Below are positions 35,091 through 39,173 of a stretch of DNA of 64,000 bases, piece by piece; within the stretch, counting starts at the first letter, position 1; every line of letters begins with the position of its first letter. This stretch comes from Selenomonas sp. (GTDB taxonomy: Bacteria > Bacillota > Negativicutes > Selenomonadales > Selenomonadaceae). The stretch is from the NCBI GenBank assembly GCA_022482925.1, contig JAKVOG010000001.1:1-64000 (forward strand), given 5' to 3'. A model generated the notes under the pieces. The model saw only the letters and a list, made by a program, of their open reading frames with translations, did no database searches and had not been told where the DNA came from. The translations under genes and the position numbers were made by a program.

Positions 35091-36275
35091 ATGAACATCA
35101 ATTTCAATCGGAGGAAGCCCCCTAAACTATATTCACACCAAGGGAAAAAAAGTTACCTAGATCCAATTCGCAACAAAATGGTCGAGGCAACCCCTGAGGA
35201 AACCATCCGTCAGCAAACAATCTCTTTCATCATCAAAAAGCTTAATATTCCTAAAAATATGATTCAGGTTGAAGAACCACTTTCGCATTACGGAATCGAT
35301 TCAAAATGTCGAGCAGATATCATAATCACTGAATACAATCAGGAACACGATAGCTTATCCCCGATTGCTATAATCGAGTGCAAAGCTCCAACTGTAATAA
35401 TCTGCGAAGATGAATGGAAGCAGGTATATGATTATTGCAATCAGCTGCATGCCGATTACGCCATGCTTATAAACGGCATAGACTTCCTTTGCTCCAAATT
35501 TCTACAGGAAGACAATCAATATATTCCTATAGAAAGTGCCCCCACTTACCAGGAAATGCTTAATGGAGAATATCATGTACTTCCCAGCATCGATTTGCCA
35601 CCGCGCACTCCTTTCGATAAGCTGAAAGACTATATTATGAGCCAGGGCGAATGGATAGATCTCAACATCAGTTCTGATTTAGAGGACAGAATCGCCATAC
35701 CTACACTTAATTTATGGGAATGCCTGTTGGACACTAGTCATAAGCTTCCGATAGGAACATATAAGCTGTTCAACCTAAAAGAAGATTTTGGCCTACGTTA
35801 TTTGCGCTGCGGAAACATGTCTGGATTTCCCTATAATTCACCTTATCGCTCATTCCTCGTCAACTATAATGGCAACGACACTTTTGTTTCCTTTTCTGTT
35901 GCTATGTACTCTGATGAACGCACATGTCTAATGGTTGCCATCGATAATGGATCTAAACCACATCATGCGTTGCAAATGTCCCTGGATGATGGTGTAGAAA
36001 CGAAAGGCCCTATATGCGACTTCTGGCATAATGGACATATCACTATAGGTAATCTTGGCTCTCGTCCGGCGAACGAACTGATAGATTATGTCCATGGACG
36101 TTTACCTGAGCTTATTGACGGATGCGAAATTTATATCGGTCGCTTAAAAAATGACCACCTATGGTATTTAGATGAGCCGCAGATAATACGTCTGATCACA
36201 AATCTGATTGCTTACGCCCTGATCCGGGATGACTTCCGTAATTGCATCAAAAAGCAAAAAGCCCGCAAGCGTTAA
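35091..36275 (+). CDS. HSDR_N-like PD-(D/E)XK domain protein, the only plus-strand gene in the prophage
   Basis: The product has 394 residues. GAGGTGA precedes the ATG by 7 bp. Residues about 35-130 carry a type I restriction R-subunit N-terminal fold: RADIIITEYN with its Asp, then IAIIECKAPTVIICEDEWKQ with the ExK pair, and a VYDYCNQLHADYAMLINGID helix. The C-terminal about 250 residues match nothing I know. It faces against all neighbours and is followed by its own hairpin terminator, so it is an independent unit inserted in the replication module. A nuclease or sensor role in phage-phage competition is a reasonable guess, not shown. Confidence 0.7.
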   Translation: MNINFNRRKPPKLYSHQGKKSYLDPIRNKMVEATPEETIRQQTISFIIKKLNIPKNMIQVEEPLSHYGIDSKCRADIIITEYNQEHDSLSPIAIIECKAPTVIICEDEWKQVYDYCNQLHADYAMLINGIDFLCSKFLQEDNQYIPIESAPTYQEMLNGEYHVLPSIDLPPRTPFDKLKDYIMSQGEWIDLNISSDLEDRIAIPTLNLWECLLDTSHKLPIGTYKLFNLKEDFGLRYLRCGNMSGFPYNSPYRSFLVNYNGNDTFVSFSVAMYSDERTCLMVAIDNGSKPHHALQMSLDDGVETKGPICDFWHNGHITIGNLGSRPANELIDYVHGRLPELIDGCEIYIGRLKNDHLWYLDEPQIIRLITNLIAYALIRDDFRNCIKKQKARKR

Positions 36276-36292: not shown

Positions 36293-39173
36293 TCAGTCTT
36301 TCTGGTAATACTGGCACTCATAACCATCTGCCCGAAGCAATAGCCCGGGTGCCCATGGTGGTGTCTGGCCCATCTTCTCGCAGACCTCTTCGAGCGTCAG
36401 TCGGTCATCCGCCTCGATGATCAGCTCATCATGCACATGCATCACAATGTGGGAATCGCGGAGTGTCTGCATCGCATAGCAGAGAATATCCCTGGCTACG
36501 GCCTGGGTAATGTTCTCGACCAACTTGCCAGCGAACGTCTCGATGCGCTCCCACTTCTTCGTCGCGCCGATTCCCATATAGGTAATGGACTCACCGCCAA
36601 AACGATTCTCGCCAATGCGCGGCAGCACATAGGCCAAATGCCGGCCACTGGGAAGCTCAATAAAAAGCATGCCGCTCCGGCAGACAAACTGCAGGCCATG
36701 CGTCTCCGTGGTCGTATGACCTTTGACCGCTGCCTTGGCTGCGTGATCCACATCCCACCAGAACTTCACGATATTGGGATTGGCTTCACGCCAGGCATCA
36801 ACCAGCGGTTGCAGCTCATCTTCCTTCATCCCGGACTCGATAGCGCCCATTGCCTTGAGTGCACCAACCGATCCACCGTAACCACAGTTATGAACTAACT
36901 TGCCCGATACGGTAAAACGATGATATCTGCCGGCATTTCGTATGTCATAAACTCGAGCCGTGCCTCGATGAGTCGCCAATGCTTGCGCTTCTTTAGCACA
37001 GCCTTCTTCGCATCTTGGATAATCTCCGTTCGACTCTCTCCCGCTGACAATTTGCGAGTCACGACATTTTGGCAATATGGCCAATATCGCTGGTCGAATC
37101 TGGTAATTACTGTGTTTCGCCGATTGCTGGCATTCTGCGCTCTTGTCACAAATCGCAGATTCCCACGCGCGTAATTGCCGTTTGTGTCGATCCGGTCTAT
37201 TTCCATTTTTCTTTCTGGAACACCATACATTCCAATCAGATAAAGCCCCGCCTCTGTTACACTCCTGAACTCGAATCGAATCCCTCGCGCCCCGTAGCGT
37301 TGGTACTGAGCATCTCGCGAATTCTCGCAGCGGCCTTTTGCTGCCGCCAGCCTCTTGTCCAGCCACAACGGTATTTGCCTTGGCTGAGAGCATCTCTGAC
37401 ATCCCTTCGATTTCCCCGATCTGAGATTGTGCAAATTCTGCCATTGAACACTGCCGCATCCTGTGCATTTTGTCAGGACATAGCAGTGATTCCATGCTTC
37501 GCTCCATCGTTTCTCCGAACTGATTATTTTCACCCAACCGTAACGTTCGCCCACCATCTCCGGTTTGTATGAGATGTGCGCCGCTGGCGGCAGCTTCTCC
37601 AAATCGTATTGGCCACGTTTGCCCTTCGACCCATACGAGGTGATTTTGGGTTGCGACCAATCCCTCATATTCAATGACCTCCTGTTCCCCTTTGTAAATG
37701 ATCCCATCATGCTTGACCCAAGACTCTCCATCCCACACGCGATGCTCCAACGTAACTTTCTCTATAGGAATAAGTCCTTGATCCGTGAGCACCATCTGCC
37801 CCTCAGCAATACAGGACAACGTTGCTTGCTTCCCCTTCTGCCGGAGTTCACCGTTTTGACCATGCTTCACCACCGGCACATGGAACATCTTCTCAGCTGT
37901 CGCACAGTAGATATCTCCCTGAGCGGCAAATACATCCAGCACCCATTGCTCACCGGCCAGCCAGGCCAACACTCGACACTCGATGGCGGAGAAATCTGCT
38001 ACGATGAACTTGCGTCCCGGCTTAGGGATGAAAGCCGTACGAATGAGCTGCGAAAGTACATCTGGCACCGATTCATACAGCAATCCAAGTGCTGCATAGT
38101 TACCCTGCCTGACGAGCTGCCGCGCCTGAGCCAGATCCGGCATACTGTTCCGCGCCAGATTCTGCAACTGGACCAGCCGCCCGGCGAATCTGCCACTGCG
38201 GTTGGCTCCATAGAACTGGAACAGACCTCTAGCCCGGTCATCGGTTCCGGCCACATTGACCATCGCCGTGTATTTCTTGACACTGGATTTTGATAACTGC
38301 TGCCTGAGGATCAGCAATTCATGTACATTGCCCGAGGTCACATCGAGCATCTGCTGGACTTCCTTCTTGGCTAACGACTCCACCTTTACTCCCTGGGCCA
38401 GCAGCCACTCCTTAAGCTGGATGGGCGAGTTCGGATTTTCCAAGCCGGTGATTGCCTGCGCCCGTGCCAGATTCTCCTCCGTACATTTCTGACTGATGGC
38501 GATCGCATTTTGTACAAGCTGCCGATCCACCAGAATGCCTCGGTCGTTGATTTCCTGATCCTGATGGTATTCCTCCCAGACCTGCTGCGGCACCGGGAAC
38601 TTGCCCAGCTTCTGCTGGATGGCCATCTCGACTTCCACGTCGCGCTTATTGTACCTTCTTGAAACGGTCCACTTTATCAGGTGCATCCGCTGACAGATTC
38701 CGTTCTCGCCCGCCGTTGGCCTGCGTCGGCTTACACGGGCAGCAGAAATAGCGGATCAGGTCCTTCCCCTCGTCCATCTTCTGCTGTTCCAGGCCAAGCA
38801 CTGCCCCTACACCTTTTAGCGATAACGGCAGCCCCATATAAGCTGACCAGACCATCGAGCAGTACCATGATGTCGGTGACAGGAATTCACCGACACCCAG
38901 CATCCCCCTATCCCGAAGATACCTGGCAATGCAGGTCCGCTCGAAGGAGCAATTGAAGGCCCACTTTTTCACCGCAGTATCAATGAGCGCCGTCAGCACT
39001 TCGGCCGGCAGTTCCTCACCCTGCGTAAAATCCACAACCTGTGCCGGCCCACCATCCACCGAATACCCAAAGAGCAGAATTTCAAAGTCCGGACTTTCAG
39101 CATACCGATACACACCAGACTTGGCCAGATTCACGCTGCTGAAAGTCTCAATATCGATACTCAAATTCTTCAA
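36293..39173 (-). CDS. Phage DNA polymerase, family A, interrupted by an intein and by a frameshift near 38653
   Basis: The N-terminal part, from a TTG at 39173 with GGTGGAGGTG upstream, has the 3'-5' exonuclease-like LSIDIETFSSVN and WAFNCSFERTCIARYL. It ends prematurely at 38646. The polymerase part runs in another frame from about 38655, beginning YNKRDVEVEMAIQQKLGKF. Removing one G from AAGAAGGTAC joins them. The polymerase domain has motif A VADFSAIECRVLAWLAG, motif C HVHDELIIEADDR and the fingers segment GYGGSVGALKAMGA. The intein (36887-37813) sits just before this last segment, leaving GKQATLS/CGYGG after splicing. Without the intein and frameshift the enzyme has about 650 residues. 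Confidence 0.88.
36887..37813 (-). other. Intein in the DNA polymerase (309 residues)
   Basis: It starts with Cys in CIAEGQMVLTDQGLIPIEKV (block A). Block B is VATQNHLVWV with the conserved Thr and His. Block F is RVYDIRNAGRYHRF. It ends in VHN followed by Cys, the penultimate His, terminal Asn and +1 Cys needed for splicing. All catalytic positions are intact, so splicing is expected. Between blocks B and F this frame has about 200 residues of atypical, Arg/Ser/Cys-rich sequence with no LAGLIDADG or HNH motif. The same DNA encodes an HNH endonuclease in another frame. Confidence 0.9.
36895..37557 (-). CDS. HNH homing endonuclease encoded out of frame within the intein
   Basis: The frame is open from 37731 to 36895; the likely protein begins at MVGERYGWVKII (37557), about 220 residues. 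A zinc ribbon comes first (CTGCGSVQWQN ... KGCQRCS). The nuclease core follows: LAAAKGRCENSRDAQYQRYG, ARGIRFEFRS, and MEIDRIDTNGNYARGNLRFV with TRAQNASNRRNT. This is the pattern of phage HNH homing endonucleases. The TAG stop lies 8 bp before the splice junction, within the codons for LVHN. The start codon is uncertain because GGAG abuts the ATG without spacing; a later start is possible. Confidence 0.8.
   Translation of the reverse strand: MVGERYGWVKIISSEKRWSEAWNHCYVLTKCTGCGSVQWQNLHNLRSGKSKGCQRCSQPRQIPLWLDKRLAAAKGRCENSRDAQYQRYGARGIRFEFRSVTEAGLYLIGMYGVPERKMEIDRIDTNGNYARGNLRFVTRAQNASNRRNTVITRFDQRYWPYCQNVVTRKLSAGESRTEIIQDAKKAVLKKRKHWRLIEARLEFMTYEMPADIIVLPYRAS

Follow-up and report, generated by a model that had tools for sequence, protein, structure and literature searches.

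A probable intein of new layout in a phage DNA polymerase gene, with a putative homing endonuclease gene in a second reading frame

In the textbook form of an intein, the endonuclease is fused in frame. We analysed a 64,000-nucleotide stretch of Selenomonas sp. DNA (contig JAKVOG010000001.1, positions 1 to 64,000; here the window), for which a reading made from the letters only (the sequence-only reading) had claimed something else: an intein inside a polymerase gene, and an HNH protein with a zinc ribbon encoded by the same DNA in another frame. Is this overlap real, what keeps both frames open, and how could both products be made? Our results indicate that the insert is very probably an intein of new layout, in which a mini-intein splicing domain within a phage DNA polymerase carries a homing endonuclease gene out of frame. 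Both frames are selected, the polymerase frame is free of stops, constraint on the HNH frame sets in at an internal ATG, and alleles without the intein occur at this insertion site.

The intein and the HNH gene of the window

The insert in the polymerase frame has every residue expected of a class 1 intein (Cys or Ser at position 1, TxxH, a penultimate His followed by Asn, and Cys, Ser or Thr at +1). As the sequence-only reading had stated, Cys1, T55-x-x-H58 and His308-Asn309 could be located, and the residue after the intein is Cys+1 (36886-36884). In an alignment of 31 rows, C1, T55, H58, H308 and N309 were invariant. According to AlphaFold models of the window intein and of relatives, residues 1-85 and 277-309 form a Hint fold at a predicted local distance difference test score (pLDDT) of about 90, and the roughly 190 residues between them are predicted to be disordered. 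The top match of the intein model in the PDB was the Npu DnaE intein (Foldseek, E 7.7e-4), and the remaining high-probability matches were inteins or intein-like domains. The residues and the model together suggest a class-1-type intein that is predicted to splice, and they point to a splicing domain that tolerates a long unconstrained insert.

On the same DNA, an open reading frame (ORF) in the +1 frame runs from 37731 to 36895 (278 aa) and covers the DNA between blocks B and F as well as blocks F and G. Its stop codon (36897-36895) lies within the codons for the final intein residues, as had been claimed. Both frames are indeed open, but the overlap of about 660 bp and the start at 37557 given by the sequence-only reading did not hold: the HNH frame is longer, and the gene likely begins at the ATG at 37668 and encodes 257 aa (Table 1). 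That reading had also proposed searching both translations against intein and HNH profiles. The HNH frame matched PHROG 374 (E 1e-19) and PHROG 3377 (E 2.5e-16), and Pfam returned neither an intein domain nor an HNH match in the window. The four cysteines of the CxxC..CxxC zinc ribbon are invariant in 29 aligned relatives. Among 36 family members, four gave a weak match to Pfam HNH_3. The AlphaFold model of the HNH frame had a mean pLDDT of 78.8 and a predicted template modelling score of 0.43. The product is, on its sequence profiles, a putative phage homing endonuclease.

Both frames are under selection

Each frame was searched by tblastn against phage records, and both were found in the same placement in seven of them: Streptococcus phages Javan101, 104, 107, 113, 255 and PhiSdyV1524, and Gardnerella phage vB_Gva_AB1. 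Over the same 927 bp, the intein frames were 43.7-44.7% identical and the HNH frames 59.9-65.1%. HNH scans gave 40 loci on viral contigs and 61 on genome contigs; these and all later survey counts hold among the matches listed, at most 80 loci per scan. The intein was exactly 927 bp long in 33 of the 40 viral and 46 of the 61 genome loci, and the HNH gene was in the +1 frame in 38 and 54 of them, respectively. The remainder consisted of HNH-less mini-inteins, cut records, an indel case (L062) and an odd case (L110). Named genome sources were mostly Firmicutes; the others were Gardnerella, Corynebacterium, an Actinomycetaceae bacterium, and spirochaete and Synergistes metagenome-assembled genomes. 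A scan that started from the intein yielded 79 loci, with the HNH match in +1 in all 79; many of them lay on contigs found before. Their lengths ranged from 360 to 978 bp, the shortest being mini-inteins with HNH remnants, and the polymerase frame was stop-free in 78, the remaining one (L165) being misplaced at its start.

For the statistics, 81 full-length 927-bp copies, including that of the window, were reduced to 37 at <90% nucleotide (nt) identity; L004 and L082, in which the HNH frame is shortened and the polymerase frame open, were removed by hand beforehand. Over intein nt 145-915, the polymerase frame had no stop in any of the 37 copies, and the third frame had 8-27 per copy. The HNH frame was without stops in 34 of the 37. 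In the exteins, over intein nt 0-179 and again after nt 899, site diversity was maximal at the third position of polymerase codons; over nt 180-899 it was maximal at polymerase position 1, which is HNH position 3. The comparison of codon positions in homologues that the sequence-only reading had proposed thus places the shift of the wobble position into the HNH frame at about nt 180 and its return at about nt 900. Given the +1 geometry, a polymerase-frame stop can arise only where an HNH codon ending in T precedes a codon that starts with AA, AG or GA. At such stop-risk codon ends T was found 0 times in 1517, versus 1339 of 3542 at other sites where T is possible. Synonymous shuffling of the HNH codons produced a mean of 9.2 polymerase-frame stops per sequence, and for any sequence at most 2 of 2000 shuffles were stop-free. 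This strict avoidance of stops argues that ribosomes reading the polymerase frame traverse the entire HNH gene, and therefore for splicing at the protein level and against splicing at the RNA level. The recurrence of the layout at the same length, with an openness beyond what the HNH protein and codon use would lead one to expect, is more than chance.

Selection on the polymerase-frame amino acids over the HNH body was considered and rejected. Identity there was 0.286 versus 0.274 after shuffling, and the third-frame control showed an equally small excess (0.288 versus 0.275), so that only openness matters in this part. Two stretches at the ends of the overlap, intein nt 148-300 and 844-912, are dual coded, with both proteins constrained. 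In the latter, 4 HNH-frame stops were counted versus 13.3 expected, and they came from copies in which the HNH gene ends early. The claim that splicing and endonuclease functions are stacked needs qualifying: the two are not stacked evenly, as over the HNH body selection on the polymerase frame extends only to its openness. As a side observation, third-frame stops in the 37-copy set exceeded expectation at nt 256-300 (68 versus 31.6) and at nt 1-135 (133 versus 113.6).

The start of the HNH gene was examined by resampling polymerase codons and comparing HNH-frame stops and identity with the expectation. Upstream of a Shine-Dalgarno-like motif there was no HNH-frame constraint (104 stops versus 102.8 expected). 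Between the ATG at intein nt 146 and a later conserved ATG at nt 257, no HNH-frame stop was found versus 46.7 +- 5.0 expected, and HNH-frame identity was 0.63 versus 0.29 expected. Because of this onset of constraint, starts at 37557 or at the later ATG were dropped in favour of nt 146. The motif AGGAGGT, 8 nt and the ATG (37683..37666) lie in intein codons just 5' of block B. After dereplication, 48 of 54 full-length members had ATG at this position. Codon choice in the polymerase frame favours both elements: the Tyr codon under the ATG was TAT in 36 of 37 copies versus 148 of 260 Tyr-before-G codons in the exteins (p 3e-8), and Glu codons under the Shine-Dalgarno-like motif were GAG in 31 of 36 versus 607 of 1376 in the exteins (p 2e-7). 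The HNH gene likely has its own start at 37668, and we infer independent initiation.

With these elements, expression most likely proceeds as follows. A ribosome translating the polymerase would read blocks A and B, go on through the off-frame HNH gene, which yields a disordered linker of about 190 residues, and finish with blocks F and G. The intein would remove itself together with the off-frame linker from the polymerase precursor at the protein level. A second ribosome, initiating at the internal Shine-Dalgarno motif and ATG in the intein codons, would make a free +1-frame HNH protein, which presumably cuts intein-free polymerase alleles, and repair would then copy the intein across.

Wider survey, mobility and the host locus

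Further scans brought in +2 inteins as a group and, as another, +1 inteins of the APSE type; the queries were the HNH protein of Salmonella phage AG11, P46 of phage APSE-1 and a profile built from relatives of the AG11 protein. In total, 221 pairings of block A to block G were obtained, unique only at exact identity. Both ends were in the same frame in 216, of which 215 had no stop; the sole stop-bearing pairing (L345, 10 stops) falsely joined blocks of different inteins. The N- and C-terminal blocks were in different frames in 5 of the 221 (L062, L077, L100, L110, L397), and the apparent frame 0 of L062, L110 and L397 is due solely to an indel or a false pairing. In 206 inteins the HNH match scored above 60 bits, a few of these matches being partial remnants. 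It was +1 in 135, +2 in 71 and in frame in none, and the polymerase frame was stop-free in all 206; in 186 the HNH match was stop-free as well. At <80% identity of the splicing blocks, 122 inteins were left (77 +1 and 45 +2). Cultured or named +1 examples are APSE-1, Caulobacter RW and Shewanella SFCi1; such +2 examples are AG11, Sodalis SO-1, EBPR siphovirus 2, Vibrio 97.13, Pseudomonas MR14 and Escherichia PS2. Free-standing HNH relatives also occur, for example in Pectobacterium phage Possum and Acinetobacter phage C62.

The intein hosts were PolA, at several sites, and superfamily 2 (SF2) helicases (L185 and L193 by Pfam; L183 and L191 resemble them). In L182 and L189 a +1 HNH intein lies in a gene without a Pfam match above the cut-off, with the junction motif IDYAD; this gene is perhaps ATPase-like, RecA- or DnaB-like. 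Seven loci had two out-of-frame-HNH inteins in one gene (L188, L190, L327, L342, L347, L354, L370), one being +1 and the other +2 at four of them (L327, L342, L347, L370). Quick trees required at least one frame change for the HNH proteins and at least two for the splicing domains, and both out-of-frame states were retained across wide divergence. The sequence-only reading had taken the layout for a step between in-frame inteins and split inteins. This view is not supported, given the lack of any in-frame case among the 206 and the persistence of both out-of-frame states. It seems likely that, within inteins, members of this HNH family are as a rule encoded out of frame and that entangled inteins are widespread in phage replication genes, the mini-intein making an independently translated HNH gene neutral to its host and the shared DNA making frameshifts in the nuclease gene harmful to the host gene.

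The signs of mobility are indirect. In a C-extein scan, 63 of 80 loci were empty, 7 filled and 10 not classed, where empty means that no intein end was recognized by pattern; 12 of the 63 were checked by eye. The polymerases closest to that of the window, L209 (88%) and L210 (85%), are empty at the same junction. Among 100 related genomes, the HNH gene was found in none of 21 congeners, and 4 other genomes gave weak HNH matches only (E 1e-7 to 1e-10). In three congeners the related polymerase has an undivided frame of 659 codons, as would be expected of a gene that lacks the intein. HNH and extein identity were only weakly correlated (rho 0.24, 630 pairs; for example, 0.82 versus 0.48). The 372-bp mini-intein of L052, compared with L014, has 4 mismatches and lacks 555 bp between 9-bp direct repeats, which looks like a frame-preserving loss of the HNH gene.

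Table 1. Features of the polymerase locus in window coordinates
Feature	Position	Strand	Basis
Polymerase-frame ORF, family A DNA polymerase	38686..36293	minus	Pfam DNA_pol_A 3.7e-20; PHROG 10285 8.1e-112
N-extein	38686-37814	minus	part of polymerase-frame ORF
C-extein	36886-36293	minus	part of polymerase-frame ORF
Polymerase N-terminal part, other frame than the rest	39173..38646	minus	ORF comparison with one-frame polymerases of relatives
Predicted intein, 309 aa, Cys1 (37813-37811) to His308-Asn309 (36892-36887)	37813..36887	minus	splicing residues, fold
Block B T-x-x-H, T55 to H58	37640..37651	minus	sequence, alignment of relatives
Intein residues 287-309 (blocks F and G); the HNH C-terminus is encoded here too, as far as 36895	36887..36955	minus	alignment, coding constraint
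Polymerase-frame reading of HNH body, about 190 residues of predicted disorder, intein residues 86-276	36986..37558	minus	pLDDT about 33
Putative HNH endonuclease gene, +1 frame, 257 aa, ATG 37668-37666, stop 36897-36895	37668..36895	minus	PHROG HNH families; constraint start
Zinc ribbon of HNH protein, C68, C71, C90, C93	37390..37467	minus	CxxC..CxxC, four Cys invariant in 29 aligned relatives
HNH core, residues about 113-182	37123..37332	minus	PHROG matches; invariant D158, R159, N170, N179, N182
Shine-Dalgarno-like AGGAGGT in intein codons, 8 nt before HNH ATG	37677..37683	minus	motif; underlying Glu is GAG in 31/36

The polymerase of the window is itself divided over two frames at 38646-38686 (39173..38646 and 38686..36293), and its relatives have a single frame. 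Either a single-base-type mutation or a sequencing error may account for this split. On the opposite strand, a 394-aa ORF (35091-36275, plus) adjoins the polymerase; by eye it gives the impression of a type I restriction-type nuclease domain.

Alternative explanations and known systems

Several other explanations were weighed. The sequence-only reading had cautioned that two compensating single-base errors in this assembly could shift an in-frame endonuclease out of frame, and that other single-base shifts occur nearby. The divided polymerase frame bears out the second remark and lends the first some weight; the same offset and length in seven phage records and in dozens of unrelated assemblies, together with the strict stop avoidance, refute it, and an artefact has next to no chance of being the explanation. 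Another possibility is an RNA intron that splices itself and contains an HNH ORF, in which case the open polymerase frame would be incidental. Group I introns of phages often contain HNH ORFs, and a homologue carries such a label: gp39 of Sodalis phage SO-1 (L012) is annotated as intronic, and its polymerase record says type I intron. An intron does not need an open frame, yet a stop-making T was never used at the risk sites, and the splicing residues and the intein fold are present. In the window, Rfam returned nothing even with E values up to 1 allowed, group I intron structure included, and seven related loci, SO-1 among them, gave no intron-type match at the gathering score. The SO-1 label is probably wrong because of the intein blocks, the open frame and the lack of an Rfam intron match, and an RNA intron is scarcely credible. 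At this HNH gene, the record of phage 4FS1, as given in a search listing, has the name "intein-containing DNA polymerase precursor".

Two further explanations accept the frames and differ on their use. The HNH protein might be made by programmed ribosomal frameshifting, as a fusion with the N-extein and the N-terminal part of the intein; since the overlap of the frames is complete, a shift could enter the HNH frame. HNH-frame constraint begins exactly at the ATG with its Shine-Dalgarno-like motif, codon choice favours both, and in 24 of 37 copies the HNH frame becomes open just upstream of the ATG (nt 140 or 143), which makes frameshifting improbable. Alternatively, the out-of-frame HNH insert could be retained and tolerated inside the host protein. 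Out-of-frame HNH inserts without intein or intron splicing have been proposed in phage methylases under the names ShiLan domain and Pacc40 insert (Arsenault, Gosselin and Gogarten 2025, PMC11855218; here and below, statements on papers cited by PMC number refer to the excerpts available), and another out-of-frame HNH insert has been announced in PMC12613952. Those inserts share with the window an HNH gene out of frame in a phage gene, a stop-free host frame and the view that they are homing elements. They differ in that the host is a methylase and neither intein or intron splicing nor a Shine-Dalgarno motif was found there, whereas in the window complete intein blocks, and hence a splicing domain, flank the HNH gene and the Shine-Dalgarno-like motif is conserved. 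With class-1 splicing residues invariant in 31 rows, a confident splicing fold, and mini versions that retain just the splicing blocks, a retained insert is very improbable.

Some observations weigh against an intein with an out-of-frame endonuclease gene. The evidence is computational throughout, and splicing, independent initiation, DNA cutting and homing are what we infer from it. As to the intein, Pfam recognized no intein domain in it, a PDB sequence search with the intein profile gave a single weak match (chain 4kl6, E 0.31), and eight divergent relatives end in Ser-Asn instead of His-Asn. As to the HNH protein, that of the window has no Pfam match, its model had no significant match among PDB folds, so that its identity follows from sequence profiles, and a PDB sequence search with the HNH profile gave a chance match only. 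ATG was missing at the start position in 6 of the 54 dereplicated full-length members (ACG in 4, ATC in 2), a stop fell within the HNH match in 20 of the 206 inteins, and the HNH frame is truncated in some copies. In the +2 group only 0.3-3.1 stops would be expected, so that openness there is weak evidence. Finally, the polymerase of the window is frameshifted upstream, and this copy may therefore be inactive.

How does the layout compare with known systems? The sequence-only reading knew of no described case. Two partial precedents amend this: the record of phage APSE-1 (NC_000935) places the HNH gene P46 within P45, in +1, and a 2025 paper reported the non-splicing methylase insert. P45/P46 is like the window in having a +1 HNH gene inside a phage polymerase intein, and by our survey it belongs to the same wider family; the polymerase insertion site is another one, and the record annotates overlapping genes only. 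In the available excerpts, the 2021 APSE paper (PMC8579659) makes no mention of HNH and gives the name P46 to a neighbouring gene. A literature search returned no account of an out-of-frame endonuclease within a splicing intein; a preprint on actinobacteriophage inteins with a "non-canonical architecture" (10.1101/2025.01.02.630785) may describe one. The canonical arrangement is exemplified by the dCTP deaminase intein of cyanophage CL131 (PMC6293099), with an HNH domain in frame. The window intein shares its splicing blocks A, B, F and G and the HNH between B and F; in CL131 the HNH is within the intein polypeptide, whereas the window encodes it in a separate frame and has a nuclease-free intein polypeptide.

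Split inteins offer another comparison. Dassa is said to have described, in 2009, "fractured genes" in which split inteins are accompanied by free-standing endonuclease genes. There, as here, the endonuclease is a protein separate from the splicing domain. The window intein is contiguous, and its nuclease gene overlaps it instead of lying between the halves; in place of two ORFs, the polymerase frame runs open through the intein in all but one of the 216 same-frame pairings. Synthetic sequence entanglement with an intein-bearing meganuclease has also been published (PMC12455656). It is alike in that two frames share one DNA and frameshifts hit both products, and it differs in being engineered, from an immunity gene and a meganuclease, and in not being a natural mobile element.

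In the inteins described here, splicing and homing would be encoded by a single DNA segment in two different frames. They are present in many public phage sequences, often labelled just "DNA polymerase", and would be a natural counterpart to synthetic sequence entanglement. They provide a large natural set for measuring the evolution of overlapping genes, in which one frame is fully constrained and the other only kept open. They also suggest that phage inteins that appear to lack an endonuclease are worth checking in all frames.

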